Virus record (IMG/VR): IMGVR_UViG_3300017991_005548
Coordinates: 124,001-188,000 of that record
Direction: 5' to 3' (one strand)
DNA: 64,000 nt
DNA from: a virus
A program made the position numbers and the translations under genes. Below the pieces are notes generated by a model. The model was not told the DNA's origin. It ran no database searches and worked only from the letters and a program-made list of their open reading frames with translations. Positions 905 through 39,003 of this stretch are shown here, in pieces (positions within the stretch are counted from its first letter, which is position 1; each line of letters starts with the position of its first letter).

Positions 905-2966
905 ATTCAATTCTCGCTTTGAACTCGCCCAAATTCCACGAATCTGGATCAACGGGTTCGTATGTTTTGCCGTTAAGTATCAACTTATAGTTGAATATTG
1001 CTATCGTTGTTGGCCAACTCTTTCCATTGTACTGATTACACATTCCAAGACCATGAATCCAAGCGGAAGCTTCTGGTTCGTTGTATCCCTGGTCCATTAA
1101 ACCTGAGAATCCAACAGCATAACAGCCGAATCGGATTGATGGATAATGTATATGCCCAATAAATGTGTTATGACCTAACGATCTTGACGCTTTCTCCAAT
1201 TTGTTTCCATTTTGGTTGTAAAAGGTCATGTCGCCATGTATGAACTTGGCGCTACCTATTTCCAGTACATTCTTAAGATAAGTTATCTCGTATCCAGAAT
1301 TTGTCAAGTCGCAAATGAACTCAACATTGAGAATTGAGTTCAATTGAGGGTATTTTTTTATGAAATCCTGGGCAAATCGCTCATGGTTACCTGTAATCGC
1401 ATGGCGTTCCTTTGCCCATTTTGCCATTCGTTTCATAATATAGCTGGTTCTTGCCCCTTCGTTCAAATAATCACCAAAAATTACATGTCCTTTGTCCAGA
1501 TCATGGTGGTTAATTGCCTTGGCATCAAAAAAGTCTCCAACATTAACTAATACATCTGGTTTGTAATCTTTACATACTTGTTCCTGGAGATCAAGCACAT
1601 TAGCGTCATGACTTGGAGCATGCATGTCAGCCGTCACAAAAATCTTTTTACTTGGTTCATGTACGCCTTTTGAAGAAATGATTTTGTCGAAATACGAAGT
1701 GTAGTATTCGCCATTTATTTGCTGAACCAAACATGGTACAACAGTATGATCCCCATCTTCATTTACATGAACAATCAGAATCCCCTGATTCCAAATCTCA
1801 TATTTATGCTTTTGCTTTCTATACTTAGAAAACCCATCATGATAGGCGACTTTCACAGTCCTTCTGTCTTGAAAGTCAATCTGTTTGATAGTTCTAATTA
1901 TGTGTTTCTCGCATAATGATCCAGGAGACATGAAGAAATGGGAAGATCCATCAGATGCGGCTTTAGAAACAACCTCTTGTCGATGACAGTTCACAATCAT
2001 CTTGCCTGCAAAAATCTCGTTATCAAGGTTTTTAATAGAGGTTGAGACATAATCAGTGATCATATCCTGATTACTTACGGTCAGGTCATGTCCTAAATTA
2101 ATATCTTCTCTAATAATTTTATAGCTAAAGTTATGGGAGAACCTTTTCTTATGAACAAACTTGAGTTCTTCTGTTTTAGCAAGAACAATTAAGTTCTCCA
2201 CATCTCCCCACTTAAAGCTAATCTCATTATCGTCATCTAGAATATGACCTATGTGAATGACATTGTCTGCGTCAAAGAAATCGTTGACATTATTAATTAG
2301 ATCAAGCATCTTTCTCTTAGTATGCTTGCCATGAGAGTCACCAACAACGATATAGGTTCCTTCATCAAGTTGGATCGATTCCTCATTTCCCAACCCATAT
2401 TCATCAAGGTCTTGAGTTGCGAGGTCTTTAATCTCTGTAAAACAGATGGGAAGGTCTTTTTCTTGAAGGTTGATCCTTTCCAAAAAGTCGTCTTTTCTCA
2501 TCTCTTTAATTCGACAGTAATTATGTCTACTCAAAGAGACCATCGCATTAACTAGATGCTGAATCAGTTCTTCATTACTTTTGGCTTCCTCATCCTCACC
2601 TTTTTCATTAGCATGGAAAGTTGCCGCATGCCATGCTTTCCAGTCTGTATTCTGTGCTTTCCTTTCAACAGAAGAGACAGTTCTCTCCATCTTCTCTGCT
2701 ATAAAAGGGTATGATTTTTCAGAATCTAGATACGTATGGAGACGCAACATATCCTGTTGACTCCATACGCTTCGTCTATTTATGGGGTCGGTATTTTCTT
2801 CAGTATCATCGAAGAAATGTTTCCAATTTACTCTACTAAATTTTCTTCTGGCCGCATCACCACTACATCTCAGTTCCTCCCCGATCTCTGGCCATGTTTT
2901 TCCTTGATTAACTCTCAGTTCATACAATTGTTCGGTGTTGTCATTAGTCCAAAAAGACACGCTCAT
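855..2966 (-). CDS. Tandem calcineurin-like metallophosphoesterase with N-terminal Myb/SANT-like repeats
   Basis: This 703-residue protein has three parts. Residues 1-110 hold two Trp-containing helical repeats of Myb/SANT type (FWTNDNTEQLYELR, then WSQQDMLRLHTYL), which usually bind DNA or protein. Residues about 200-335 resemble a phosphoesterase fold with damaged motifs: GDSHG is kept, but GHILDDDNE stands where GDxxD is expected, KTEE replaces GNHE, and NCHR replaces GHxH. Residues about 440-640 hold a second copy with the full metallophosphoesterase set: D447-x-H449, GDFFD (D478, D481), GNHE (526-529), H577 in IHGD, and GHIH (604-607). The family binds two metal ions and hydrolyses phosphodiesters or phosphomonoesters; the substrate here is unknown. 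The start has a GGAG ribosome binding site and a TATAAT box 32 nt upstream, so it probably opens its own transcript. Confidence 0.85.
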   Translation of the reverse strand: MSVSFWTNDNTEQLYELRVNQGKTWPEIGEELRCSGDAARRKFSRVNWKHFFDDTEENTDPINRRSVWSQQDMLRLHTYLDSEKSYPFIAEKMERTVSSVERKAQNTDWKAWHAATFHANEKGEDEEAKSNEELIQHLVNAMVSLSRHNYCRIKEMRKDDFLERINLQEKDLPICFTEIKDLATQDLDEYGLGNEESIQLDEGTYIVVGDSHGKHTKRKMLDLINNVNDFFDADNVIHIGHILDDDNEISFKWGDVENLIVLAKTEELKFVHKKRFSHNFSYKIIREDINLGHDLTVSNQDMITDYVSTSIKNLDNEIFAGKMIVNCHRQEVVSKAASDGSSHFFMSPGSLCEKHIIRTIKQIDFQDRRTVKVAYHDGFSKYRKQKHKYEIWNQGILIVHVNEDGDHTVVPCLVQQINGEYYTSYFDKIISSKGVHEPSKKIFVTADMHAPSHDANVLDLQEQVCKDYKPDVLVNVGDFFDAKAINHHDLDKGHVIFGDYLNEGARTSYIMKRMAKWAKERHAITGNHERFAQDFIKKYPQLNSILNVEFICDLTNSGYEITYLKNVLEIGSAKFIHGDMTFYNQNGNKLEKASRSLGHNTFIGHIHYPSIRFGCYAVGFSGLMDQGYNEPEASAWIHGLGMCNQYNGKSWPTTIAIFNYKLILNGKTYEPVDPDSWNLGEFKARIEYDIEATDYLESKKPNR

Positions 2967-2998
2967 ATAAATTTCTCCACAAGAAATGATATACTATA

Positions 2999-3004
2999 AT
3001 TATA
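2999..3004 (-). promoter_or_regulatory. Candidate -10 promoter box (TATAAT) upstream of the phosphoesterase gene
   Basis: On the minus strand the short gap between the Ser-rich gene and the phosphoesterase gene reads GGCTATAATTATAG. The TATAAT box ends 32 nt before the ATG at 2966. Similar boxes lie 32-36 nt before the starts at 29348, 50571, 59297 and 61416. No convincing -35 element is visible here. Function is inferred from position and recurrence. Confidence 0.45.
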
Positions 3005-3020
3005 GCCAGCAATCCGCCGA

Positions 3021-3674
3021 CTACAAGCAAAAATACGAAAATTCAACAAAACCCATTTCCTCAGGTACATTTTCATATCTAACAACAAACCCATTTTCGA
3101 GCAATTCATAGACATAAAGTCTTGGAAAATCGAATGGGCCTGGATACTCGTTTGAAGTTGTGCTACTGTCACTACTTAAAGATTGGCTTGAACTACTGGA
3201 TGAGTCTTTTGAGCTAGAACTGGACGTACTGTCTGAACTAGGAGTATCTTCGCTACTGGTGCTGGAAGAATCTAATGAGCTTGAACTAGAGGAATACTCT
3301 TGTGAGCTTGAACTAGGAGATCCTAAGCTACTTGAAGAAGATTCGCTTGCCTCTGTTGAGCTACTACTGCTTGATGAGTCTTTTGAGCTTGAAGAACTGG
3401 ATTCAGTAGAAAGTGAAATTGAAGTAAGACTGGATTCAGAAGTTGGGCTTGATGAGCTTGATGAAGATATTCCCCCTATTGATAAACTTGATTCACTAGA
3501 AGAACTATATTCAATAGCTGGATTATAAATAGGTATAGAGGCCCATGTGATAATGGCACTCGTTATAGGATAACCAGTTATGATAGTAATATATCCATCT
3601 CCTGAACCAGCGTAAGCCTTCTTTCCTGTCAGGGGATAGTTATCAGATCTTCTTAAATCGTATCGTCTTATCAT
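3021..3674 (-). CDS. Ser-rich linker protein with short N- and C-terminal caps
   Basis: This 217-residue protein starts with about 50 ordinary residues containing GYITIITGYPITSAIITW, continues with a Ser-rich tract from about residue 56 to 175 broken by D, E, T and P, and ends in a 40-residue cap with aromatic residues (RLYVYELLENGFVVRYENV). The start overlaps the stop of the preceding giant gene as ATGA, so translation is probably coupled and the product should be made together with that protein. No catalytic motif or signal peptide is seen. It is probably a small virion or tail-fibre accessory protein, a role inferred only from its place and from the shared linker type. The Ser tract matches the linkers in the neighbouring giant proteins. 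Long open frames on the opposite strand are by-products of the repeat. Confidence 0.75.
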   Translation of the reverse strand: MIRRYDLRRSDNYPLTGKKAYAGSGDGYITIITGYPITSAIITWASIPIYNPAIEYSSSSESSLSIGGISSSSSSSPTSESSLTSISLSTESSSSSSKDSSSSSSSTEASESSSSSLGSPSSSSQEYSSSSSSLDSSSTSSEDTPSSDSTSSSSSKDSSSSSSQSLSSDSSTTSNEYPGPFDFPRLYVYELLENGFVVRYENVPEEMGFVEFSYFCL

Positions 3675-6600
3675 TCTGGTAGCCTTTTGCTTATTGGAAC
3701 GTTTATAATAGTTCCATCACTTGACCTCGGAATCCTTTTGGAAATATTATACATTACTCCAATATGATGGATAACTGCGACCTCATCAGTGAAATTTGTT
3801 ACTCTTGTTGCGACTCTGAATGATGACGCAAAGAACAAATCCATAAATATAGTTGTCGATGGGTCCTGTGGAGCCAAGAATGTAATCGTCCCTTCAATAT
3901 TATTGGCCGCGTATTCTGAAGAATCAATCAAAGTCCCTTGAGTCTCATCCAGTCCAAGTCTATAAACATTCAGTGTAAAGTTTGCATTCCATCGACCATT
4001 AACAGCCGTATAAGTTTTGAAATCTTCTGTTTGTAATAATTCATTAAACCTTGTGGGCAATATCGTATGTTGATCTGGAATGATGTTATAGTACTCTTCT
4101 GGTCTCAAGGATTCACTTTGAGTCATAAGGTATTCTACAGTAGAGTTCTCTGGGACATCTGCTTCGCTAGTTATATGAATTGAAGAAATGTATTCGTCAT
4201 CGTCCAAGTTCACTGAGATTGGTTTGAAGAAAATAACGAATTCTCTTGGGTTGTAATAATCAACTTCTACTCCACCGTTAATTACTGGGGTTTGGAAATC
4301 AGAGTTTCCAACGAGTTTGATCTCATATTGAATATATTTCTGCAAAGCATCAATTGACTTGTCATGTTCATAAGGAATTGAATAGTCAATGAAGTCAGTC
4401 CAGTCAGAATATGTAATCCCATCTACACTAGTTCTTATTCTGTAGGTTACTTCTGCTCCTGTAGGAACGGTAACTCCCGCTATTACAGTAGTGTCTGGGA
4501 TATTGGGATTCTCAAAGACAATCGTCCCAGTAAGAGTTGTTGTGTTAATTTGTAAATTATTCCCTGATGCGATCTCATTACAAATACTATTTATTTGGGC
4601 TGAAGTGCTGTTATCTAAGTAGAATACAGACGATCCTCCCTCCTCTCCATATTTCTCAAGCAAGATAGAGTCAGATGCATGGGGTTGCCCTAATTGAATC
4701 GGAATTATCTGAACTTCACCCTCTCCATCAACAAAGTTGACAGTTTGTACAGCTTGATTTAAAGAATTCTCGGATGTATTCTCGTCGCCATCTGTGACAA
4801 TGATTACAAATTTCTTATAGTCTTTGTAATCTTCGTTATTTGTTTGATATTGGACCAATTGCTCTGCGGCTCTTTTTACTGCATCATGCAATTGACTTGC
4901 ACCAAAGAAACCAAATGAATCGATTGCAGAGGCCAAGTAGATATCATCACTTGTTAACTCTGGGACTCTATGTCTAATGGATGGATACCATTGTTGAATA
5001 CTGGCCACATTGATGATGAATTGTCTTTCGGAAAGATAACCATCAGACGTTGCAGAAACTCTGGCCTTAATATGCATGTAATCTCTTTTTACTCCTGCTC
5101 CCATTACCAAGAATCCAGGATCAGTTCCTTCTTCGTCTTCTGGTGGTTTGTATGGAAGTAGTTCAACAGTAATACGAGATCCATCAGTTACAATCTCTTC
5201 TGGTACGACAATTACATTCCCGATATCGTCAACGTACTGATACTCAGGGAACTTCGCATAAACACGAATATCAAAACCTCTTTCAGTTTCTTCGATATCG
5301 GTAGCAGTATAGAATGTTGCGGACGTATCTTCACTTCCAGCAGGGCCAGCAACTCCTGATTGAGATGAAGCTTCTTCTTCGTCCTCATAATCTAATATAA
5401 AGATTGGTTCACCATTATTAAGGTCGTTCCCCAATTCTATCTTAGTAGCAAGTCGTCTTGCCAATTCAGTTCCAGCAGGCACTTCGAGCGTAGCAAACAT
5501 CATTCTGTTGCCTTCTGGATTCACAGGTTCATTTTCATATGGTTGCGAATTTGTGGGATCGTATCTAACTGTTCCATTTACAACAAAGTCTGTATCAATA
5601 TTCTTTGTTGGAAGAATGTTCGTCATGGCAACACATCTGACATTATGAGAGTGACTTAACTGCTCATCTGATTCATAGCTGGTAAACGTATGAGTATGAT
5701 TGCCAATTGAGCCGAACAAATTAATCGTACTTGTCGTAGTGCCATTCCCATTGATATCTAAGCTAATTACATGAGTGTGACTGCTTACTACTTCACCTCC
5801 GCTATCTTCGTCATATACGTCTGAACGAATTAAACCAGACTGAACAGAATAGTCAGACAAAGAAATGTCTTGGTTGGGACCGACAATCAAACAACCATCA
5901 ATCAGGTTTCTTGTATCCTTCATCTGAGGTAACTGTCCACCAGAAGCATTACTCTCTTCGCAAATTCCACTTTCAAATGTCACTTTTGGCAATGGATACT
6001 CTATTACTGACTCAAAATCGGTTCCCTCATTAATTGTGAGTTGATTGAGAATTGGTTGGCCTTTCCAAGTCAATTCAGCATAGATTCTTGCAGTAGTAAC
6101 TCCATCTCTGACAAAATTAGTCTCATATTTTAGCTCAATACCAAGGGGTTCCACATATTGTTGTAGTGGTTTTGGAATTCTAATGCCACCACCAGGAGTG
6201 GGGAGTGGCCTTCCATTGGCGATTTCTCCTCTTCTGTATCCCCCTTCTTCCTTTCTGTAAGAGGTATATGCTTCAACCTGACTTAACCAAGGCTCTCTAA
6301 AGATCTCACGTTCTCCAAGAGGTTGCTGATGTCCAATATTTTTGTTTTTAGGAATGGCTGTTAACTCAAGCCTATCTGTTTGCCAAGTGGACCTTCTAGG
6401 GTTTGAATTGAATGTTGTTAAAGTTCTTGGTAAATCATTCGGTTGTCCCAAACCTCTAAGCCTTTTTACACCATCCTCTCCAACGAAAATGTCAGTTGGG
6501 TTGAAGTCATCTTGTAAATCCACTACAATTTTTGCGTTTGGATTACTTTCTCCATCAGCGTAGATAGGTGTCAGAGCGTCTTTTGCATAAAAAATGAATG

Positions 6601-22146: not shown

Positions 22147-24585
22147 TTATTGATTTACCAAATTGATTTTATCACCACTAAACATCAAAGCAAACTCATC
22201 CACAACAGGTAAGCTTGTATCATATGAAACCATCCTGATACCAACTCTTATATTGTCAATTTCTGGCATTTCGAAAAACTCATCAGGATTTATAATTGTG
22301 TAATCATCCCAGTCAGTTGAATTATCTGCATTATACCCAAATGTTATCTCAGTATTTGTTGGTTGAGTAATTGTCCCTGTCAACAAACCTTTCTTGATAT
22401 CAGATTCATTCTCAAGTGAGAACTTAACGGTATAGAAGTACTGTGCTCTTTTGGTTGAATATACCAAATTCACACTTGTAACTTTTGGAGTGAGGTCGTT
22501 GGAATTTGTTTCCATTAGAACCTGGAATTGAGCAAACTGCCCTTCAAGACGAACGTTGTTTAAATCCCTTACAATTGGATTAGCTTCACCATTATTTGAA
22601 TTGTAACAAGTTCCCCAAGGTGTTTGGCGCATCTCAGAGATAGAGTTTCCAGTTCTTATACATATCGTTATTTTAGTATTGTCTGGTTTATCTTCAGACC
22701 AAATGAGTTGCTTCCAGAAACCAATGTCTTCTTGAACTTGAAGGACGGGACTAACAAAAACAGCGGTCACCCTCTCAACTGGAATTGCAGTTGCGTCTTC
22801 CATATATTTCCATTTTTCTATCTCTTTGTCCTCATTGATTTCAATAATTCTTTTATATAAAGCATACATAAAGGTTTCAGCGGTTGTTTCGGAAGGATTG
22901 CCAAACCCATTTGTGACATCAGCATAAACCAACCTTTCCCCCGTTCTGTAGGCATTTAAAGTAGCCTCATCTGCATATAAGATTCTGCCGAAAGATGTTG
23001 CAAACAACACTCCACCATTTTGGGTATCTTTGGTCATGAAAGTAATCTCTTCACCATTATTAAAATGTATTATTGGAATTCCTCTGCTTTGACTGGTATC
23101 TGGTACACCTTCAGGCTCTGGTTCTGCTTCTGTATCAGTTGTTTCTGGTATACTAAACAACAATGAGAAGTCAGCATCACTTAAATCATAATCAGTCTCT
23201 GCTGGGGTTTCAGAAGCTGACAACCATTCGATGTACATTTGATAGTCCGTTCCATCCGCTAGTGACAATGGTATGTTCCACTCAAAAGTACCATCATTAG
23301 AAGTTTTCGGAGTTATTTCCAAGACCTCTGCTCCACTTTTATACAAAGCGAGTTTGACAGCATCGTTTACTCCTCTTGTTGAAGACCAAGTAATATCAAC
23401 AGTATCTCCAATTAGCCAAACCTCACCGCCATTTGGAGATGTCATGACTACTGTTTTCCCTGCATTAGGATCTTCCTCTGGTTCAGTTGGAGTCTCCTCT
23501 TCTGCTGGAGTAATATCTCCACAATGAACTAGATACAGTTTGTCTCCCATGGCCGCTAAATTGGCTCCTGTGTCAATATTCAGGAGTTGTTGTACCCCTT
23601 CTGCGTCAGTATCGAAGATGGGAGTGAGATTTCCTTGATAGTAGTTAAAAACTCTACCCCAGTTTCCACCCCCCACAGTGACTGTAGAACCATCTTGAGC
23701 AAAACTACCGATCCCAACCAATCTGTTATATGGGAATATATCAAGGATATCTTCATTTGACAACCCATCGGTTTTTATGATATCTTTTGTATTTATAAAT
23801 TCGTATGTTGTATGAGAGAAGACATTCTTAGAAACCCTTCTGGTTGTTGCAACATTATCTGGCTGTGATATTTCAATCTGCCAATTACTTCCGTCATATG
23901 AAACTACATTTTGAGCGTCCATTGCCAGGTAGATTTTGTTATCAAATGACGACATCTGGTTAATTGACGTTCCATAAGGTCTATAGAAAACAACCCATGC
24001 TTGATTTACAGCATCAAACCTATAGACAATTGCAGGTCTAGACGTTGCCGCATAAATTTCCCCATTATAGGATACAAAATTAACTACTTCTCCATTGGAA
24101 GTTTGATCAAGTGTAACCGCATTTGTTGTTAGATTTATCCTATAAATTAAACCATTAGGAGAAGTCCCTGCGAAAAGAGTTGATCCATTGACAAGCAATG
24201 CTGTGACAAGCTGATCGTCTAGTTGATAAAAGTTCTCCCATATGTATCTATCTTTACTCCTAATGATCATTCCGTCATTGCTGGTTCCAGCATAAGCATA
24301 TGTCGAATCGAATGTGATTGACCAAATAGATTTCTCAGAACTCTTTTCATAGATGAATGGCAATAGTCTCTCATCTTGGTAGTCGAGATAAGAAGAGCTA
24401 GAACTAGAACTGGAATCGATAGAACTACTAGATGAGCTAGATTCGGATTGAGAACTAGAACTAATGCCAAAACTCGAACTAGATGAACTACTAGTTGAGC
24501 TTGTACTCGATTCAGAAGAATACAAGTAACTAGAGCTAGAACTAGAGTCTAGTGAACTTGATGAACTAGATGAGTTATTGGCCAT
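22147..24585 (-). CDS. Tail-fibre protein: Ser linker, beta-propeller, Kre9-like domain
   Basis: This 812-residue protein starts with a Ser-rich stretch (about residues 5-70). A beta-propeller region follows (about 75-355), with blade-like repeats such as YAYAGTSNDGMIIRSKD and TLFAGTSPNGLIYRI. Residues about 377-478 form a Kre9/Knh1-like beta-sandwich: SPNGGEVWLIGDTVDITW, then GTFEWNIP and DADFSLL. A near relative of this domain is found in the protein at 30610-33663. The last 300 residues are beta-rich and unrecognised. No enzyme motif is seen. The start codon overlaps the stop of the small upstream gene (TAATG) and has an AAAGG ribosome binding site. A structural and adhesive role is inferred from architecture and place. 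Confidence 0.78.
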   Translation of the reverse strand: MANNSSSSSSSLDSSSSSSYLYSSESSTSSTSSSSSSSFGISSSSQSESSSSSSSIDSSSSSSSSYLDYQDERLLPFIYEKSSEKSIWSITFDSTYAYAGTSNDGMIIRSKDRYIWENFYQLDDQLVTALLVNGSTLFAGTSPNGLIYRINLTTNAVTLDQTSNGEVVNFVSYNGEIYAATSRPAIVYRFDAVNQAWVVFYRPYGTSINQMSSFDNKIYLAMDAQNVVSYDGSNWQIEISQPDNVATTRRVSKNVFSHTTYEFINTKDIIKTDGLSNEDILDIFPYNRLVGIGSFAQDGSTVTVGGGNWGRVFNYYQGNLTPIFDTDAEGVQQLLNIDTGANLAAMGDKLYLVHCGDITPAEEETPTEPEEDPNAGKTVVMTSPNGGEVWLIGDTVDITWSSTRGVNDAVKLALYKSGAEVLEITPKTSNDGTFEWNIPLSLADGTDYQMYIEWLSASETPAETDYDLSDADFSLLFSIPETTDTEAEPEPEGVPDTSQSRGIPIIHFNNGEEITFMTKDTQNGGVLFATSFGRILYADEATLNAYRTGERLVYADVTNGFGNPSETTAETFMYALYKRIIEINEDKEIEKWKYMEDATAIPVERVTAVFVSPVLQVQEDIGFWKQLIWSEDKPDNTKITICIRTGNSISEMRQTPWGTCYNSNNGEANPIVRDLNNVRLEGQFAQFQVLMETNSNDLTPKVTSVNLVYSTKRAQYFYTVKFSLENESDIKKGLLTGTITQPTNTEITFGYNADNSTDWDDYTIINPDEFFEMPEIDNIRVGIRMVSYDTSLPVVDEFALMFSGDKINLVNQ

Positions 24586-24934: not shown

Positions 24935-27900
24935 TTATCTCCAAACATCTCCATTTGAATCATGTGCCCTGATATATTTTAAGCTACCCTCACTTTGATA
25001 TGCAATTGCTGGACGACCATTGGTTTCTCTTAAAGTGAGATAAGAAGCGTTTGTATCTATTATTTGAGGCGTATCTGTCCAACTAGTTCCTCCAGTATTG
25101 TCTGCTCTAATGTACTTAAGTATCCCCCCAGTTATGATATATGCTATAGCTGGGCGACCATTTATTGAGTAGACAGATACTTGTTCAATATCCACTAAAG
25201 ATCCTTCGTCACTAGCGTCATATGTATTCCATGATAAAGACCCTATAGAAAATTTCAAGATATTATTCCCAATAGATGGGTGATATCCGAAAGCGACACC
25301 ATAAGATGCCCCAATTATTGCCACAGAAACAGAGTTATTATATCCAGTTGATGGGAAGCTATATACAGTGCTATATGGATTCCAAAAGCCAGCAGTTCCC
25401 CCAGTTACAGTCCCAATCTCATCCTTATTCGGATTAAAATATACCATCCTGGTACTTCCAATGGCATCCATATATTGAGTCACTTCTGATGTAACTAATA
25501 AAGGGGATTCTGCCCCCCAGCTAGACCCATCTGCATTATCAGCTTGTAATGAGTACATGGAAAATCCGCCTTGTGAGTATACCGCTATTGGTTTTGAACC
25601 ATAAGTTAACTTAAGTGGATATTCATAAAGTGCGCCACCTCCACTTAAAATATCAGCAGGAGTATCCGTCCAAGAAGTACCGAAAGCATCGTCTGATTGG
25701 ATATATTGTGTAACATAAGGGAAGCTGTCTCCTTTACAATATAAAACGGCTGGCTTAAAGTTTACTTCAGCTAATGAAGGTGGATAGGTTTCATCTTCTA
25801 TTCCAAATGTGCCAATTGTAGCTGGGTTATCCCATTCATCCCCTGAAGTATCTGATGCCATAAGGAATCTCATCTCACCAGAGTTGTTGTCATAATAGGC
25901 AATTGCAGGTCTACTATTTATTATTTCCATAGAAGCATATTTTGCGTCTTGAGCCAAGACTTCATATGGAGCACTGCTAGATGATGAGCTTTCTGAATAT
26001 CCCCCCGAACTTAAACTGCTGGAGCTATCACTAGACTCAGAACTAGAACTGGAACTGGAATTCTCAGAGTACATCTCGGAACTGGAGCTTTCACTAAAAG
26101 AATCTGAACTCTCTGACCAAAACTCATTATCGCAATTATAAATATATACAAATGTTCCGTCAGAAGCGGCAACCTGACTATTGTTTAAATCAACCCCCTG
26201 CCAGAAGGAAAATGTTGGTACAAACAATATCTGGATATTTTCCCAATTCTCATCAATTTTTGTGTTTACATAAATAGGAAAAGAAACGCCTACAACATGA
26301 CTGTCTTTGTAAAGTCTTGATATGTTACCTGTATTTGTTCCAAATGAACCTTGATATACCCATGATGTTCCATTAAATTCATAGACAAGACCACCATTAA
26401 CAATCAAAGTATTATCATATATTGCAACAGTCAATCCGAATTGTGTTGTAAGGCTGGGCAAAGTCTGGAACTCTGACCAAGATGAACCATTCCACCGATA
26501 AATATAAACGACTCCATTATTTGAATCGTAGCTCTTGTCTCCAACCACAATCCAGTTTCCAAAAACATCAACGCCATCTCTGTTACCATAAGAAGGAGTG
26601 GCAGTAGTTGATCCTAAAGATGGAGTGATTTTCTGTATGAAATTCCAGCCACTAGAATAATGGTAAATATATATAGCGCCAAGAAATGAGCTATATACAG
26701 GTGCTCCGACCACTAATCTTCCGTTATGAAGCTTTATTGCAGAGCCAAAATAATCCCCGACATTTTCTCCTGCAAAAAGTGCTGTGCTGGACCAAGAGGC
26801 CCCAGTATTACGATAAACATAAACTAATCCAGTAGTTGAGAGAGACAACTGAGAAGAGCATGCTAAGTCTTTTTGTCCAGATTGACTGTCGTCTAAAGCA
26901 ACAATTCCACCAAACAAATCTCCATCCCCAGATCCATTAATTTGAGTGTCATAGCTCCATGAACCACCAGCATACTCATACAAATAAACACATCCTCTGT
27001 TGTTATTCCCAGACGTGTCATACGTTGGATTGCCAATAGCCATGTAATCATCTGTCATTGAAATGTCATCAACATTACCTCCCCCAGGATTTGGTGGTTC
27101 AAGTGTTTGGATGATTTCGCAACCAAAAGAGGAACTGGAACTTTCTGAGTCGGATTGAGAACTAGAACTGTTGGAATAATTCTCAGAACTTGAGGATTCT
27201 GAGAACCCCCCACTATCAGAACTTGAAGATTCTGAGAATCCCGCAGAACTAGGGCTAGATGTACTTGACGGATCTGAAAACATCTCTGAACTTGTTGAAC
27301 TGGAACTCTCAACAAAGAAGTATTTATTCTCATCCGATATTACATAAAATGTGTCAGAGGATGGATGCTGACTTGCTCTTAAAATATATGGGAAACTATC
27401 ACTTGTTGATAAAACACCCAAATAGGTTCCACTTGAATCGAATTTAACAATTCGGAGGCTTGACTGAGTACCTCCACCAACATAAAGATAATCTGTTGAG
27501 GTGTCAATATCAAAACAGCTAACTGATTTACCTGAGAAATATGAAGTAATATTATAGTCAATAGTTTTAACTAAATTCCCATTTATATCTGCAAACTTAA
27601 AGAGCTTATTCTCAGTTAAGATGAATAGATCCCCTTTTGAATTCGATAATGCTCCAAGAACATTACTATCAGTAAAAGATCCTGTTGCAATCATATCCCC
27701 ATCAGAATTAAAGCTTAGAAGACCCAGTATCTCGTCAACTACATAACAACCTCCACTATCATGGTTAGTACAAGCTATAGTTGGGGAACTTAAGTTGATT
27801 ATCTCAATGTCAATATTAAGATCTTTGTCTGTTTTGTAAACAGATGTTCCATCAACAACCCAACACCCTAAACATTCATTATTTGTAGGGTTCTCGTCTT

Positions 27901-28210
27901 CCATGGGAACTTGATACTGAATAACAGAGATGGAGTAAGGATAAGAAAGAGACAATGAATTTAGCTCATTACCTTCATAGTCCGACTTAATAACTAATCC
28001 ATTATTGGTATCTACTCTAAATATGTTCCCACTAGACCAGCAAGAGTCTACGGCCTGTTGAATGGAGAATTTAACAGGGGTATCATAAGATATTAAGGAC
28101 GAAACAAATGTAAATGAAGAATTGTATTGACTATATATCTGTTGATACCCGTCAAACCCAAAAGCCGTAACCCCTCTACTGCGTGATGTTTGTTGATTCG
28201 CAATATTCAC
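24935..28210 (-). CDS. Adhesin with three beta-propeller regions joined by Ser linkers
   Basis: This 1091-residue protein begins at a GTG; there is no in-frame ATG upstream and a stop lies two codons before it. Residues 1-300 read as an NHL or quinoprotein-like propeller. A Ser linker (about 303-363) leads to a second domain (about 365-690) with seven FG-GAP-like repeats ending in motifs such as GAIYIYHYSSGW and GVVYIYRWNGSSW. A second Ser linker (about 698-747) leads to a third domain (748-1091) with seven repeats, the clearest being SRPAIAYYD and NGRPAIAY, each followed about 20 residues later by SDxxGxxW. Seven repeats match a seven-bladed propeller. The second and third domains have close relatives at 34494-36632 and 30610-33663. 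Receptor binding is inferred. Confidence 0.8.
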   Translation of the reverse strand: MNIANQQTSRSRGVTAFGFDGYQQIYSQYNSSFTFVSSLISYDTPVKFSIQQAVDSCWSSGNIFRVDTNNGLVIKSDYEGNELNSLSLSYPYSISVIQYQVPMEDENPTNNECLGCWVVDGTSVYKTDKDLNIDIEIINLSSPTIACTNHDSGGCYVVDEILGLLSFNSDGDMIATGSFTDSNVLGALSNSKGDLFILTENKLFKFADINGNLVKTIDYNITSYFSGKSVSCFDIDTSTDYLYVGGGTQSSLRIVKFDSSGTYLGVLSTSDSFPYILRASQHPSSDTFYVISDENKYFFVESSSSTSSEMFSDPSSTSSPSSAGFSESSSSDSGGFSESSSSENYSNSSSSQSDSESSSSSFGCEIIQTLEPPNPGGGNVDDISMTDDYMAIGNPTYDTSGNNNRGCVYLYEYAGGSWSYDTQINGSGDGDLFGGIVALDDSQSGQKDLACSSQLSLSTTGLVYVYRNTGASWSSTALFAGENVGDYFGSAIKLHNGRLVVGAPVYSSFLGAIYIYHYSSGWNFIQKITPSLGSTTATPSYGNRDGVDVFGNWIVVGDKSYDSNNGVVYIYRWNGSSWSEFQTLPSLTTQFGLTVAIYDNTLIVNGGLVYEFNGTSWVYQGSFGTNTGNISRLYKDSHVVGVSFPIYVNTKIDENWENIQILFVPTFSFWQGVDLNNSQVAASDGTFVYIYNCDNEFWSESSDSFSESSSSEMYSENSSSSSSSESSDSSSSLSSGGYSESSSSSSAPYEVLAQDAKYASMEIINSRPAIAYYDNNSGEMRFLMASDTSGDEWDNPATIGTFGIEDETYPPSLAEVNFKPAVLYCKGDSFPYVTQYIQSDDAFGTSWTDTPADILSGGGALYEYPLKLTYGSKPIAVYSQGGFSMYSLQADNADGSSWGAESPLLVTSEVTQYMDAIGSTRMVYFNPNKDEIGTVTGGTAGFWNPYSTVYSFPSTGYNNSVSVAIIGASYGVAFGYHPSIGNNILKFSIGSLSWNTYDASDEGSLVDIEQVSVYSINGRPAIAYIITGGILKYIRADNTGGTSWTDTPQIIDTNASYLTLRETNGRPAIAYQSEGSLKYIRAHDSNGDVWR

Positions 28211-28256: not shown

Positions 28257-29348
28257 TTACTGCTCGTTTTCCTCTAACCATTTTTTAGCAAGCAAAGCCT
28301 TCCAATGATTATTCTTGACACTTTCTTGTATAGAAATGTGATCTTCTAGAGGATTTGTTAAGCAATCAAACATACATGGTTCAAATTCCCATGCGATTTT
28401 CTTCTCTTCTGCCCTTTTCCGAAGGTTGTTAACAAGATCGCATGACTTTTTGCAGTTTATGCATTCATTGTATACCATTTGCTCCCTCAACCTAGTGCAG
28501 AAAGTTCTGACATTATCCCTAAAAATCATTTTTGCATTTTCTTCGTAGTAATCAATGATTTTCTGGTATTCTTGTTTTTTCATGAACTCATAAATTGTAT
28601 CAGCATATTCCCAAAGATGATTACCTATCTCTTCTGGATAACTCCTTTTGAGTTTCGGATCAATTTGATGTCGAGAGAAGTCCCCTTCTTCCAAGAAATT
28701 TTGAACCTTGCCTAATGTTTCATCAGGATACATGATAAGATCATCAAACGAAATAACCAGAATAGGTATGTCTGGGTTCGCTAAAAGCCATTTGCATGCC
28801 TGATATGTTACGTTAATAAACATTTCGGGAGTATGAATCCTTAACCCTGACTCAACTTCTTCTTCATGAGTCATAAAAGGAAATCGTTTTAATCTTTCCT
28901 GAGATTTAGCAACTTGCCTTGGATCTCTAAGCATATAGATGATTTTGTCAATATATTCAGGATTACTGTTAAAAAGACCCTGGCTAACGATCTTGCATAT
29001 TTGGCCATCAAGCTTAGGCATATTCATGTGCCACTTGATGCCTCTAACTGAGTATCGGCATTCCCAGAATCCGTTAGGATTCATGTCTTTGCTAATCTTA
29101 AAATCTCTTTCGGCATTTGGGGCAACTATTTCTCTTATATATTGCCTGGCCTCAAACTCTTCATCTGTTTCTTCATCGTGTTTTTGTAGTCCAATCGCGA
29201 TTCTTTGTTCCTGAGGAAATTTATGACCAATTATACGATCATCTCCAAAGGCTATGCGCAAGCAATCCATCATTAATGATGTGCCAGAACGAGGACACCC
29301 AGAAACAGTAATCAGACCTTTATTTTGTTGGTCAGAAGGAACATCCAT
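28257..29348 (-). CDS. Sulfotransferase family protein
   Basis: This 363-residue protein carries the two hallmarks of PAPS-dependent sulfotransferases: the 5'-phosphosulfate loop GCPRSGTS at residues 17-24, and a 3'-phosphate motif YMLRDPRQVAKSQ near residues 148-160, where the conserved Arg and Ser sit. ILVISFDDLIMYPDETLGKVQNFL near 210 is the usual helix-capping region of the family. The C-terminal 90 residues contain several Cys (CINCKKSC, then CMFDC), which may bind a metal. The reaction would move sulfate from PAPS to a hydroxyl, typically on a glycan, tyrosine or small molecule; the acceptor is unknown. It has a GGAG ribosome binding site and its own TATAAT box 36 nt upstream. It sits between fibre genes, which suggests action on tail proteins or on the host surface. 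No PAPS synthesis gene is visible here. Confidence 0.85.
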   Translation of the reverse strand: MDVPSDQQNKGLITVSGCPRSGTSLMMDCLRIAFGDDRIIGHKFPQEQRIAIGLQKHDEETDEEFEARQYIREIVAPNAERDFKISKDMNPNGFWECRYSVRGIKWHMNMPKLDGQICKIVSQGLFNSNPEYIDKIIYMLRDPRQVAKSQERLKRFPFMTHEEEVESGLRIHTPEMFINVTYQACKWLLANPDIPILVISFDDLIMYPDETLGKVQNFLEEGDFSRHQIDPKLKRSYPEEIGNHLWEYADTIYEFMKKQEYQKIIDYYEENAKMIFRDNVRTFCTRLREQMVYNECINCKKSCDLVNNLRKRAEEKKIAWEFEPCMFDCLTNPLEDHISIQESVKNNHWKALLAKKWLEENEQ

Positions 29349-29384
29349 AATAATTCTCCATGTTATGCTAATAAATCCTTAAAC

Positions 29385-29390
29385 ATTATA
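29385..29390 (-). promoter_or_regulatory. Candidate -10 promoter box (TGTATAAT) upstream of the sulfotransferase gene
   Basis: The minus strand reads CATGTATAATG in the 61-nt gap upstream of the sulfotransferase gene, 36 nt before its ATG. The TGTATAAT core is identical to those at 50605-50612 and 59330-59337. No clear -35 element is visible. Confidence 0.5.
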
Positions 29391-29409: not shown

Positions 29410-30147
29410 TTAATCAAAATAAGCAGGAATTGAGTTTTCTATCATAATCCTGCTTACTGAACACTGGAGGTTGTTTAGATTATAAACATTGTCCAGTATC
29501 TGGAAAGGGATATCTTCAAAAACACTTGAACCTGAAGGGGCAGTTTGGCCAATGGCTGTATAGAAGGCGCTATTGACATCAAGATCATCAATAATTGGAA
29601 CCCCACCACCAACAATATCTTGATCGTCAACTCGAATAACCATAGTTACATCATTACCTATATAAGAAATCTCATCTTTATCCCAGAAAAATTCAATTTC
29701 AAAGCTAGTGTTTTTTGATATTGTGGTTTCGTCGTCTATCAATGAGTAACTGCCAGCGGAAGTTTTGACTCTAAATTCTATTCCATCTTTTGTAAAAAAC
29801 GCTCCAATCCCTGGAGATTCAATATCTGTTTCGCCCATATTGACTCCCCAAAGCATATATTCCTTTTCTGAAAATCTAGCTGGGTGGATGACTCCATTCT
29901 GCAAATTAAATGGGAAAGACATGATTAATCCGACATATCCAGTTGATATAGAGAAAAGCTTGGATGCATCATCACAGAAGATTCTACCCTGATTATGCAA
30001 AGTTTTCTTTATTGATGACGCGAAATGAGGGGTTTCGTTATCCTCCACGACCTCAAAGAAACCAGAATGACGCATTTCAGCCGCATTATCAATCAAAGGG
30101 TTGTGAATGCTTTTTAGGTCTTTTGTGTCGCTATAGTAAGTGATCAT
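29410..30147 (-). CDS. Hypothetical beta-rich tail protein, possibly lectin-like
   Basis: This 245-residue protein is not confidently assigned. Motifs such as GYVGLIMSFPFNLQNG, EYMLWGVNMGE, GIEFRVKTSAGSY and SFEIEFFWDKDEISY alternate strands in the way of concanavalin/LamG-like sandwich domains, so a glycan-binding module is possible. It has no Ser linker and would be a stand-alone subunit. The N-terminal 40 residues look like a connecting segment. The stop lies 61 nt before the sulfotransferase start, in a gap that carries a candidate promoter. The upstream neighbour ends 11 nt before its start, so it is the last gene of that operon segment. No catalytic residues can be named. Confidence 0.65.
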   Translation of the reverse strand: MITYYSDTKDLKSIHNPLIDNAAEMRHSGFFEVVEDNETPHFASSIKKTLHNQGRIFCDDASKLFSISTGYVGLIMSFPFNLQNGVIHPARFSEKEYMLWGVNMGETDIESPGIGAFFTKDGIEFRVKTSAGSYSLIDDETTISKNTSFEIEFFWDKDEISYIGNDVTMVIRVDDQDIVGGGVPIIDDLDVNSAFYTAIGQTAPSGSSVFEDIPFQILDNVYNLNNLQCSVSRIMIENSIPAYFD

Positions 30148-34493: not shown

Positions 34494-36632
34494 TTAGCAC
34501 CCCCAATCTCCATTTCCTCTTTCCCATTTAATAGTTACTCCATCAGTTGTCAGAATATATCCAAATTGCCCATTAGCTATCTCTGATCCTAATGTCCATG
34601 TAGCAGGGTTTATATTGTCATTAGATAAGTTTATTGGATTTTGCCAAGTTCCTGAGTAATATCCAACGTATCTATTCCAGTCACCTCCATGACCATTGTT
34701 ATCATAACGAACATTAAGGTACATCCATGTACTAGTATATCCAGTATAATATATTGACACAAAGGCATTCATATTAATTCTGTCGTCACCTTCAGTTTGC
34801 CGCCAATATTCTCCACCAGGAGGGCCAGGATTACAATTATAATTATCTGGGCAAACTTCCTGAGGTTTCCCATTTGCAAATTGGCATCCAAGGAAACTTC
34901 TTTCTGTAGGTGTCTCTCCAGACCAAGATAAAGTAACAAATATTGTTGGACCTGTATCTCCAGGACAATTGCACTGAGGAAGTCCAGACGAACTTGAGCT
35001 AGAGGTAATTCCGAGAGAGCTATCACTACTTGAGGAATCCAAAGAACTAGAAGAACTACTTGATGTACTAGAGGAACTACCCTCTCTTGCACCAGTACAT
35101 TCATACATATATGCTTTCCCAGGATTTCCATCATTATAGATATATGAACCAATCCCTATATAATCTCCATTAACTGCAACCTCATTATATGTTTGGTTAC
35201 TTGGGTTTGGTTCTGTAAAATTCTGATAAAATATCCAAGAATCATCAATCCATCTATATAGATTTTGTCCGATTAATAGTTGATCTCCATCTATAGAAGT
35301 CTGAAATGAAGTGGAACCTAAAGAAAATCCCTGAACATAATCCCATGAATCTCCATTCCACTCATATGCATAAACATATCTTGGATTGTTTTGGGAAATT
35401 GTCATTCTATCCCCATTAATCCTTACGAGATAACCAAGCCCATCATTTGGAGTTGGCCCAGTGAAAGTTTGAATATGTTTCCATTTGCCATTTATTCTTT
35501 CATAAGCGTATGCCCTACCCCTTTCGCCATATTCTCTACGAGCACCAACAATTGCATGATCTCCATAAATAGATACTGCGTTTCCAAAATACCCATTAGA
35601 TTCTGCGTTGGGAGATGAGAGTCTTTTCTCTAGATACCATGTGCTCCCACTTCTTGCATAAATATAAGCCAACCCACCATTTGTTTCATAAGTACCTTGA
35701 TATGCTCCAATAATAATCCTATCCCCACTCATATAGCATGATACGCCAAAATAATCATCAATATTAGGATCTTGTATAATTTGATGCTGAACCCATGATG
35801 ATCCATTCCATCTATAAATAAATAGATATCCCTCTTCCCTTTCTGTGGTTATAGCACAATAATTTCCTCCATCATATGCAACCTGCCATCCGAAATGCCG
35901 ATACAGAGAACTATCTGCTTCGATCATTTGCTTTTGAGTCCAAGAACCATTTTCCAATTCATAATAAAAAACTTTCCCATATGAGTCCAAACTGTCATAA
36001 TGACTAGCCCCAACAAACATTTTTTTACCAGAGATCTTTATTTGTGTACCATATCTGTCACCGTTTATTGGCCCCTCAATGGCTTGTTTGTATTCGAAAC
36101 ACCCATCATTAAAACTTGATGACGAACTATTTGGAAGACAGGCATGTTCACAAACTTCAATTGTTTGCCCCTTCTCGTATTTAGAACTTGCGCTGAGATT
36201 GTCAAGGGTAATAACATCCTCTGCACCTTTGTTTACATAAGTTCCTTGATCAACTCCATCTATACAAACAGTTCCTTCAGGTATTACCCCCAAAAATGGA
36301 GGTGGAGAGAACCACATAGTGCCGTGAGATTGCGAAATGTTTCCGATTGCTGTTGTTACACAAATAAGAGAGCTAGAAGAAGAAATATTCTCCAAAGATT
36401 CCGAAGATGAAGATTCCCCACCAATAGATTCAGAGCTTTCTGAAATTGAGCTTGGCATGAAGCTATCAGATGACGAACTAACAAGTTCACATTCCAAACA
36501 GGTTGAGAAAGTTCCCTCAATACTTAATGGATCAGTATCGACAGGGTCATAGGTTCTCTCAGTGTACGTATAGCACGTCCCCTCTATCCTAACTGTCTTC
36601 CCCTGATATTCTTCAAATACTATATGTCCCAT
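34494..36632 (-). CDS. Adhesin with seven FG-GAP-like repeats and a Cys-containing C-terminal domain
   Basis: This 712-residue protein has a short N-terminal Cys domain (residues 1-50), a Ser linker (about 51-90), a second Cys-containing domain (about 91-170), then seven FG-GAP-like repeats (about 180-512). The repeats have cores such as GDRYGTQIKISGKKMFVGA and YGKVFYYELENGSW; such repeats build integrin-type propellers. A Ser linker (about 517-553) leads to a C-terminal domain of about 155 residues (FVTLSWSGE, ICP/VCP-DNY, GVTIKWERGNG) that also closes the next upstream protein at 36646-39003. The C-terminal domain is the likely distal binding head, which is an inference. The start has a GGAG ribosome binding site (GGAGTGAATA). 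No enzyme motifs were seen. Confidence 0.8.
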   Translation of the reverse strand: MGHIVFEEYQGKTVRIEGTCYTYTERTYDPVDTDPLSIEGTFSTCLECELVSSSSDSFMPSSISESSESIGGESSSSESLENISSSSSLICVTTAIGNISQSHGTMWFSPPPFLGVIPEGTVCIDGVDQGTYVNKGAEDVITLDNLSASSKYEKGQTIEVCEHACLPNSSSSSFNDGCFEYKQAIEGPINGDRYGTQIKISGKKMFVGASHYDSLDSYGKVFYYELENGSWTQKQMIEADSSLYRHFGWQVAYDGGNYCAITTEREEGYLFIYRWNGSSWVQHQIIQDPNIDDYFGVSCYMSGDRIIIGAYQGTYETNGGLAYIYARSGSTWYLEKRLSSPNAESNGYFGNAVSIYGDHAIVGARREYGERGRAYAYERINGKWKHIQTFTGPTPNDGLGYLVRINGDRMTISQNNPRYVYAYEWNGDSWDYVQGFSLGSTSFQTSIDGDQLLIGQNLYRWIDDSWIFYQNFTEPNPSNQTYNEVAVNGDYIGIGSYIYNDGNPGKAYMYECTGAREGSSSSTSSSSSSSLDSSSSDSSLGITSSSSSSGLPQCNCPGDTGPTIFVTLSWSGETPTERSFLGCQFANGKPQEVCPDNYNCNPGPPGGEYWRQTEGDDRINMNAFVSIYYTGYTSTWMYLNVRYDNNGHGGDWNRYVGYYSGTWQNPINLSNDNINPATWTLGSEIANGQFGYILTTDGVTIKWERGNGDWGC

Positions 36633-36645
36633 TATTCACTCCTAC

Positions 36646-39003
36646 TTATGGACAGTTCTCATTTCCTGTTGTTGGAACGTAATTCAAAGAGCCATTTTTC
36701 CAACTACCCCAAGGTTGTCCTGATCCCGAAATTGGCTCCCACTTAATAGTAACTCCCTCTAAGTGACCCGACGTAACAGTACATTTCCCAAACATGATGT
36801 CTCTAATGTCAGTGTAAGCCGAAGCGCTACTCCCCCAAACCCCACACAATGTTGTTGGAGATACGTTAATCATATTGTCTACATTAAAGTGAGGATTGCA
36901 ACCAGTTGTTGTACCATATCCTCCACCTTCATTATAGTTCAAACCTACATAAAACTGGGCTTGGTTATTTCTTATTATAACTGCTATGTCTGCTTCTCCT
37001 GGGCTATATCCACTTCCTTGGTCTACACTGAGTCGAACTGAGTCATCTATGGCTATTCTCCAAACTTCTCTGCCTGAAGTCCAGTAATTGCTTGGACAAA
37101 TTATTTTACTCTCCCCATTTTCCCACTCTTCTCTTAAGAAAACCCTAAGACCTGGACCACTCCAACAAAGTGTCATTTTTACTCTTGGATCGGAATTCCC
37201 CTCACAATTTATCTGATCTAACGCATCGCTTTCAGAACTAGAAGAGCTAATAGAACTACTGCCCAAACTGCTCTCACTTGAGTCAGAACTGAACAAGAGA
37301 CTGCTTTTACTTGATTCAGATGAAGATGTATTTCCAATACTTTCTGAGGAACTACTAATTGATTCACTAATTGAACTGATACTTTCAGTAAATAGCTCGC
37401 ATGCATCATATCGCCAATTTAAGAAACCTGATGAATCTGATGAAGAAGACGGAGGATCAAAACTAGAACTCGATTCAGAAATGGTTATACTTGATTCACT
37501 TGAACTTGAATCAGATCCGACAACCCCAGAACTTGACGACTCAGAATTTCCTAAGGAACTTGACTCGGATTGTGAACTGGAAGATTGTGAAATCGAACTT
37601 GATGACTCAGAATAATTCTCACTTGAGGAGCTAGACGAAGGACTAGATAAACTTGAACCACTCAGAGTTGACTCACTTTGGGTTGACTGACTTTGGGTTG
37701 ACTGGCTTGTGGAAGATACAGCGCTTACTTCTGATATACTACTAGTAGAATATCTATCACTAGAGCTACTGGATGAGTCAAGAGATGATGAACTTGACGA
37801 TTGAGAACTCGAACTTGAGCTTTGATCTAGGTCAGCCTCTCCATAAACGGCTCGATACCTGAAAGCTGTATGAGAGGGCATTGTTTGACTAGCAAGATCA
37901 ATGGCAATTGTGTCATCATTTATCGGCAATCTTTTGAATTCAACTCCTTCGTCTCTCAAACAAGTAACTAAACCTCCACCAGAATAAATTACAGAAGAAT
38001 CGTTTCCTCTAGCCTTCAAAAAACCTTGATTCCCAGGAATAATTCTTGCTGACCACTCTTCAGTATAGGGAATAGAAAACTTAACTGCATCGTCCAAACC
38101 TTCGTCTATTAGATAAAAAACATCCATATCACCACTAATATTGGTGACATTAGTTCTGCCAGTCGCCAAATATGTCTCATCTAATGTCCCTGAATCAAAC
38201 CTGCCAAGATATTGATTTCCGAACACAACAAAATAACCGGAATTGCCTTTGCCTATATCTAGAATAAGATTGGCAGACGTATCAGATGATACAGAGTCAG
38301 AGTAATAATCCAATTCAAAAATTTCATACCCTGATAAAGTTTGAGCAGAAATGACTACATTACCATTTCTTTTGTTTAAGAACTTTCTAACATTACCCGA
38401 GATAGAAGATCCTAATAAATACTTCTCCAATACCTTGGCATTCTCTAAAGACCTCTTGAGTACTTGGGTCTTCTGAACCTGCCAGAAAACGCCTCGACTC
38501 CCATCAACGATAATCTCTAAGGCTTCAGATCCCAGATTAAATGATTTCTTGATTCGAATAGTGTCGGCAGTACCAAAGCAAAATAGTGTTTTGTCATAAT
38601 AAGAATAGACATTGTTGGTTTTATTGTCTACTGAGAGCATTGACAGGTCAACACCTGTATCAAATCTCTCAATAATATGGGTGCAATCTCCTGTTAAACG
38701 ATAAATAATTCCATCGCTAACAGCGAAAACATTCTCACGCATCGCGTTAACTATTTTAACGCGCATTGTGTAGTCAGTATAGAATTTTACGCCTTCTTCG
38801 CCTAAAGGAAAATCAATAAAATTAACGCCATCAAAGCTGTAAAATATTGACCCTTTTACTGCATTCTCCCTAAAAGTCGAGAGATTGTACAGCACAGAGC
38901 CTTCATTGAGTCTGTAGAACTCAAATTCATAACCAACTGGAACCCCAACTTGATCTGGATTTATATTGACATCCCATTCGAAAAATTTTGCTTTGTATGA
39001 CAT
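36646..39003 (-). CDS. Adhesin: propeller-like N-domain, long Ser linker, Cys-containing C-terminal domain
   Basis: This 785-residue protein starts with a region of about 390 residues that reads as a beta-propeller (VFAVSDGIIYRLTGD, NVYSYYDKTLFCFG, GVFWQVQKTQVLKRS). The Ser-rich linker (about 391-590) is unusually varied (STQSQSTQSEST, SESSSSFDPPSSSS) and is interrupted near residue 522 by a short ordered motif, FLNWRYDACELFTE. The C-terminal domain (about 596-785) shares KMTLCWSG, ICPSNY, FYVGLNYN and GVTIKWEP elements with the C-terminus of the downstream neighbour. The two proteins thus look like siblings with different middle modules. The start follows seven bases after the upstream stop, with a weak GGAAT ribosome binding site. 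Confidence 0.78.
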   Translation of the reverse strand: MSYKAKFFEWDVNINPDQVGVPVGYEFEFYRLNEGSVLYNLSTFRENAVKGSIFYSFDGVNFIDFPLGEEGVKFYTDYTMRVKIVNAMRENVFAVSDGIIYRLTGDCTHIIERFDTGVDLSMLSVDNKTNNVYSYYDKTLFCFGTADTIRIKKSFNLGSEALEIIVDGSRGVFWQVQKTQVLKRSLENAKVLEKYLLGSSISGNVRKFLNKRNGNVVISAQTLSGYEIFELDYYSDSVSSDTSANLILDIGKGNSGYFVVFGNQYLGRFDSGTLDETYLATGRTNVTNISGDMDVFYLIDEGLDDAVKFSIPYTEEWSARIIPGNQGFLKARGNDSSVIYSGGGLVTCLRDEGVEFKRLPINDDTIAIDLASQTMPSHTAFRYRAVYGEADLDQSSSSSSQSSSSSSLDSSSSSSDRYSTSSISEVSAVSSTSQSTQSQSTQSESTLSGSSLSSPSSSSSSENYSESSSSISQSSSSQSESSSLGNSESSSSGVVGSDSSSSESSITISESSSSFDPPSSSSDSSGFLNWRYDACELFTESISSISESISSSSESIGNTSSSESSKSSLLFSSDSSESSLGSSSISSSSSESDALDQINCEGNSDPRVKMTLCWSGPGLRVFLREEWENGESKIICPSNYWTSGREVWRIAIDDSVRLSVDQGSGYSPGEADIAVIIRNNQAQFYVGLNYNEGGGYGTTTGCNPHFNVDNMINVSPTTLCGVWGSSASAYTDIRDIMFGKCTVTSGHLEGVTIKWEPISGSGQPWGSWKNGSLNYVPTTGNENCP

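Follow-up and report, generated by a model that had tools for sequence, protein, structure and literature searches.

A Phage Sulfotransferase Subfamily Kept in Tail Gene Blocks and Coupled to APS Kinase: A Candidate System for Virion Sulfation

Introduction

A giant uncultured phage with a genome of more than 500 kb carries within its tail gene block a gene for a PAPS-type sulfotransferase (ST), and this protein belongs to a phage subfamily that is kept among structural genes, bears its own four-cysteine module and, in some of its members, is coupled to the gene for APS kinase. The fold and family of the protein, the conservation of its PAPS contacts, its tail-block site in 18 phages and the gene coupling to APS kinase were all computed directly. 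On balance, we favor the view that ST forms part of a sulfation module which is dedicated to the tail and modifies the fibers of the phage itself or their glycans. A phage-specific subfamily that is placed in tail blocks, has its own module and is coupled to APS kinase leads to a concrete and testable function, which is virion sulfation. If this holds, sulfation would join the post-translational modifications of phage virions as a possible way to tune fiber adhesion, charge or stability, and the occurrence of cysC in some phages, where it is usually taken as a gene of general sulfur metabolism, would find an explanation. To our knowledge, sulfation of fibers or virions is not described for any phage.

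The window, meaning the whole stretch of 64,000 nucleotides that was analyzed, comprises bases 124001-188000 of the 296,327-base virus record IMGVR_UViG_3300017991_005548 (G000). The record IMGVR_UViG_3300018080_008436 (G001; 476,248 bases) represents the same phage, with at least 99.99% identity to the window and positions shifted uniformly by 212,353 bases. As the record of the window extends approximately 32 kb beyond the end of G001, the genome has a size of at least about 508 kb.

The Sulfotransferase Gene and Its PAPS-Binding Motifs

The ST gene is located at 28257..29348 on the minus strand of the window, starts with ATG and encodes 363 amino acids; it is supported by its open reading frame, by Pfam, by 17 phage relatives and by an AlphaFold model. 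The sequence GGAG, which resembles a ribosome-binding site, can be read 7 nt before the ATG (29356..29359, minus strand). The initial annotation had furthermore assigned to the gene a TATAAT box of its own. This hexamer is present 37-42 bp upstream of the ATG (29385..29390, minus strand), but TATAAT is no commoner in the window than expected by chance (52 observed vs. 63.7 expected) and the search for promoter-like sites that include a -35 box gave none at this hexamer and 15 in the whole region vs. 13.8 expected, so that the claim of an own promoter is unsupported.

In Pfam, ST scores 27.3 bits against PF00685 (cut-off 22; E 2.9e-6) and 26.6 bits against PF13469 (cut-off 27), the latter value being 27.1 when the whole frame is searched. 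Searches of PHROGs and NCBIfam yielded no model matching ST. The alignment of 19 phage sequences, to which one phage contributes two STs, shows how strictly the PAPS contacts are retained. The 5'-phosphosulfate-binding loop SGCPRSGTS covers residues 16-24 (29277..29303, minus strand), and the motif GCPRSGTS, reported earlier near residue 20, lies at residues 17-24; G17, R20, S21, G22, T23, and S24 are invariant. The 3'-phosphate-binding motif RDPRQVAKS likewise exists, but it is found at residues 141-149 (28902..28928, minus strand) and not near residue 155, where it had been placed. Its residues R141 and S149 (RxxxxVAxS) are invariant as well, and the stretch aligns with its counterpart in PDB sulfotransferases in a profile search (E 2e-6). 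The alignment additionally defines the motif NPNGFWE at residues 90-96 (29061..29081, minus strand), in which N90, P91, G93, F94, and E96 are invariant (pattern NPxGFxE) and in which E96 is a candidate for the catalytic base. K119 is also invariant across the 19 sequences.

Predicted Structure and Fold

The AlphaFold model built on the 19 alignment rows reached a mean pLDDT of 86.8, compared to 77 for an earlier model built on nine rows. Among 22 PDB fold matches at E <= 0.001, 17 are PAPS sulfotransferases, including all of the 14 best; these comprise TPST1/2, 3-OST3, the olefin-synthase and CurM STs, Teg12 and others. The remaining matches are three of retinol dehydratase, which has the sulfotransferase fold with PAP bound, and two of deoxycytidine kinase. 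The global TM-scores against solved sulfotransferases are low (~0.25-0.35), which indicates that the agreement in fold is local and lies within the PAPS-binding core. While a single-sequence search of the PDB with ST gave nothing useful, the profile of the 19 phage members matched 30 distinct sequences of the PDB at E <= 0.01, and every one is a sulfotransferase or a protein of the sulfotransferase fold such as retinol dehydratase. No TPST is present among these profile matches; SULT-type and other STs were found instead.

The sulfotransferase identity proposed in the initial annotation is thereby borne out, since PF00685 is matched above its cut-off, the PAPS residues are invariant in 19 homologues and both profile and fold searches rank PAPS sulfotransferases first. 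We are highly confident that ST uses PAPS chemistry.

A Phage Subfamily With a Four-Cysteine Module

Profile scans detected the same ST subfamily in 17 other IMG/VR phages, the proteins being 30-49% identical along most of their length. Bacterial homologues in GTDB genomes show 22-34% identity, mostly in the catalytic part only, and tblastn of ST against 50,697 GenBank phage records gave no match. In a quick tree the phage STs fall on one side of a branch; the support of this branch is only 74, so that their monophyly is not established. All phage members have in common a C-terminal four-cysteine module at residues 277-350 (28299..28520, minus strand), whose residues C284, C296, C299, and C325 are invariant in the 19 phage sequences. 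The profile of the module detects 17/17 phage relatives, 0/77 bacterial homologues and 0/897 ORFs around viral APS kinases. The module is probably metal-binding. Two ST variants with extra C-terminal parts were observed, L048 8001-9245 and L052 149-1660, one carrying the cysteine module twice and the other with an added domain of ~150 amino acids; the duplicated module occurs in one phage (L048/L059).

The STs of the relatives are surrounded by tape-measure or baseplate-type genes, collagen-like proteins, Ser- or Thr-rich fibers and small fiber-tip proteins, and the neighboring families include tail fiber, baseplate wedge, Tail_P2_I, collagen-like and Laminin_G. This conserved placement in structural blocks supports a dedication of the ST subfamily to the tail; tail blocks of large phages also gather unrelated cargo genes, so that the position of ST by itself is suggestive only. 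Genes of glycosyltransferase type lie beside or near ST in five relatives (L058, L065, L066, L067, and L071).

Fiber Proteins in the Tail Block

ST is embedded in a long run of structural genes on the minus strand. In agreement with the initial annotation, which had placed it between fiber genes, ST does lie between structural genes, with a Ser-rich, fiber-like protein directly downstream (24935..28210, minus strand) that has 1091 amino acids, 17% Ser and FG-GAP repeats and is a candidate substrate. Directly upstream a protein of 245 amino acids without family match is encoded (29410..30147, minus strand), and a Ser-rich structural protein of 812 amino acids is found at 22147..24585 (minus strand). 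The fiber protein at 34494..36632 (minus strand) consists of an N-terminal DYxG/CxxC module, a Ser-rich linker, FG-GAP repeats and a C-terminal tip domain (E 9e-37). The protein next to it at 36646..39003 (minus strand; 785 amino acids, 21% Ser) is the second tip-domain protein of the window. The tip domain has ~160 amino acids, ends with ...GITYSWAxGNGW and is encoded near ST in 9 of the 17 relatives (L059 and L061-L068), whereas 80 viral APS-kinase loci and 80 bacterial ST loci all lack it. It is common to otherwise unrelated large phages and had no Pfam match in the proteins scanned.

The phage furthermore encodes at least 12 paralogous fiber proteins in which the N-terminal module DDYQG..IKINGVCYK...CLEC is followed by Ser-rich linkers and by varied C-termini. 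Arrays of such paralogues are found on both strands, in the window at 34494-36632 and in G001 at 202-237 kb and 290-300 kb, and they look like a fiber repertoire.

The initial annotation had emphasized the position of ST beside Ser-rich fibers. Across the relatives, tail and fiber neighbors are indeed general, but proteins with Ser/Thr runs lie within two genes of ST in only 5 of 18 loci. This frequency is far above the viral background; compared with genes further off in the same loci, the odds ratio is 2.2 with P 0.15. A general link between ST and Ser-rich fibers was therefore rejected, and Ser-rich neighbors, which are not significantly commoner beside ST than further off, are a trait of some of these tails rather than of the ST family.

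Coupling to APS Kinase and Supply of PAPS

Seven of the 18 ST phages have an APS kinase, which in four of them is encoded by the gene adjacent to ST (expected 0.27; P 5.5e-5), whereas the records of the other 11, which are possibly partial, contain none. These four cases make APS kinase the most frequent Pfam family in the set of 77 ST neighbors. In L059 the stop codon of the APS kinase gene overlaps the start codon of ST (TAATG), and in L002 both genes overlap. The coupling is also seen in the reverse direction, for which STs near viral APS kinases were counted with Pfam: an ST is present in 17 of the 50 viral records that contain an APS kinase, and in 10 of these 17 it lies at most 3 kb away (expected 1.7; P <= 5e-5), the P values of both directions being approximate as some records may be close kin of each other. 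Leaving aside two sub-threshold records, an ST lies within 3 kb in 8 of 15 vs. 1.5 expected. ThyX, chosen as a neighborhood control, was found at only one locus. In the viral contig L170 (G030), three consecutive sulfotransferase genes come after an APS kinase gene (1116-3694).

The phage of the window has an APS kinase gene itself (G001:97610-98155), which passes the apsK equivalog model TIGR00455 with 150.8 (cut-off 138.7); it is contained in G001 and absent from the shorter 296,327-base record, and a gene for GDP-mannose 4,6-dehydratase is close to it. Neither PF01747 nor PF01507, the families of ATP sulfurylase and PAPS reductase, was matched in G000 and G001, which together may form an incomplete genome. 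The expectation that PAPS synthesis might be encoded elsewhere in the genome is supported by the APS kinase; an ATP sulfurylase was not found, so that the phage would depend on its host for APS. The DHH-family protein encoded at G001:280005-281108 resembles NrnA and might serve to clear PAP, which sulfotransfer leaves as a by-product, or short RNA. The gene products of G001:249028-249834 and 308888-309760 are two P-loop proteins in which a GxxRxGQH motif resembles those of sulfotransferases; they have no Pfam match.

A second ST, which is a more ordinary member of PF13469 (77 bits), is encoded at G000:39671-40612, where it is clustered with genes for NeuB/PseI-like and NeuA/PseF-like enzymes and GT2 glycosyltransferases and with methyltransferase-like genes. 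This large glycan-biosynthesis cluster extends over G000:34.6-46 kb (G001 about 239-266 kb) and has several GT2s. It also encodes a glycosyltransferase-like protein of 616 amino acids that is a homologue of the ST-adjacent gene product in L071.

Proposed Function and Alternative Explanations

From these data we infer the enzymatic activity, the substrate, the expression timing and the biological purpose of ST in the following way. ST would be a cytoplasmic, PAPS-dependent enzyme of a phage-specific subfamily dedicated to the tail, and it would probably be expressed together with the late structural genes. PAPS would be supplied by the phage APS kinase acting on host-made APS, and the sulfate would be transferred from PAPS to the phage's own tail fibers. 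The likeliest acceptors would be glycans on Ser/Thr-rich or tip regions of the fibers, with a direct modification of side chains as an alternative. The glycosyltransferase-type genes near ST in five relatives and the glycan enzymes of the phage itself, including the NeuB/NeuA-like proteins, the GT2s, the GDP-mannose dehydratase and the second ST, speak for this reading. The four-cysteine module may dock ST to its substrate or may stabilize it, and the modification could serve, for example, to alter receptor binding, charge or stability. That the virion is the target of ST is a view we hold with modest confidence. The complete system, in which a tail ST docked by its four-cysteine module would use phage-made PAPS to sulfate the side chains or glycans of receptor-binding fibers during assembly, is put forward more tentatively and has in our estimate slightly less than an even chance. 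The distance of 267 kb between ST and the phage's own APS kinase gene counts against tail sulfation, as do the 11 phages whose records contain no APS kinase, the occurrence of Ser-rich neighbors in only 5 of 18 phages and the low global TM-scores.

The strongest alternative is that ST modifies the host surface, i.e., capsule, O-antigen or lipid glycans, causing a change of receptors or a block of superinfection, and that its site in the tail block is incidental. The chemistry would be the same, and bacterial STs that are paired with cysC modify surface polysaccharide (PMC11641403). The phage also has the second ST together with nonulosonic-acid and glycosyltransferase genes, but the subfamily studied here remains among structural genes in 18 phages and the glycan cluster already has its separate ST. 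As the subfamily stays in structural blocks and the second ST serves the glycan cluster, fiber glycans or side chains are favored over the host surface. Moreover, genes for superinfection exclusion are as a rule active early or from prophages, which also speaks against this alternative, and we regard it as rather unlikely.

Still less probable is that ST sulfates side chains directly in the manner of TPSTs, as a tyrosine (or Ser/Thr) sulfotransferase of tail fibers. The TPSTs head the lists of both fold searches of the PDB (E 3e-6 and 5.5e-5), ST shares an RSGT-type 5' loop, and Tyr residues near acidic residues can be seen in the sequences of the adjacent fibers. However, the best PDB matches by sequence profile are cytosolic SULTs rather than TPSTs, and the glycosyltransferases near ST in several relatives also argue against it; with low TM-scores and an agreement confined to the PAPS-binding core, ST is not classified as a TPST. 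It is very improbable that ST, as a P-loop protein that has degenerated or been repurposed, lacks sulfotransferase activity and acts, for instance, in tail assembly as a structural or nucleotide-binding factor: the Pfam scores are barely over or at the cut-off and no close solved structure exists, but the PAPS-contact residues are invariant in 19 divergent phage homologues and some members show coupling to APS kinase, both of which argue for selection for PAPS use.

Comparison With Known Systems

Phage STs as such are already known, and the statement of the initial annotation that they are uncommon is not supported, since they appear among auxiliary genes in several publications: ST genes were reported in OM43 phage genomes and in Synechococcus phage S-SRM01, where their function was called unclear (PMC10580990), in glacier viruses (PMC8290583) and in estuary viruses (PMC10829341). 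In the passages considered, tail-block placement, APS kinase coupling and a cysteine module are not described. ST resembles the families Sulfotransfer_1 and Sulfotransfer_3 (PF00685, PF13469) in both PAPS motifs, in the Arg and Ser of the 3'-phosphate site and in its fold matches, and it differs from them in that the phage group forms a set of 30-49% identity with the NPNGFWE motif and a cysteine module that is absent in 77 bacterial homologues. TPST1 and TPST2 rank first by E-value in the fold search with TM-scores of 0.25-0.29; they are only ~15% identical (TM about 0.25-0.3), and the phage ST has no visible signal or membrane segment. In bacteria, genes for PAPS synthesis together with ST genes are, by a published rule, a hallmark of clusters for sulfated polysaccharides (PMC11641403). 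Compared with bacterial clusters for sulfated capsules, which contain cysC, cysND, a sulfotransferase and glycosyltransferases, the phage system likewise joins a PAPS synthesis gene with an ST and glycosyltransferases, but of PAPS synthesis the phage has the APS kinase only, ATP sulfurylase not being found, and the setting is a tail block (PMC11641403).
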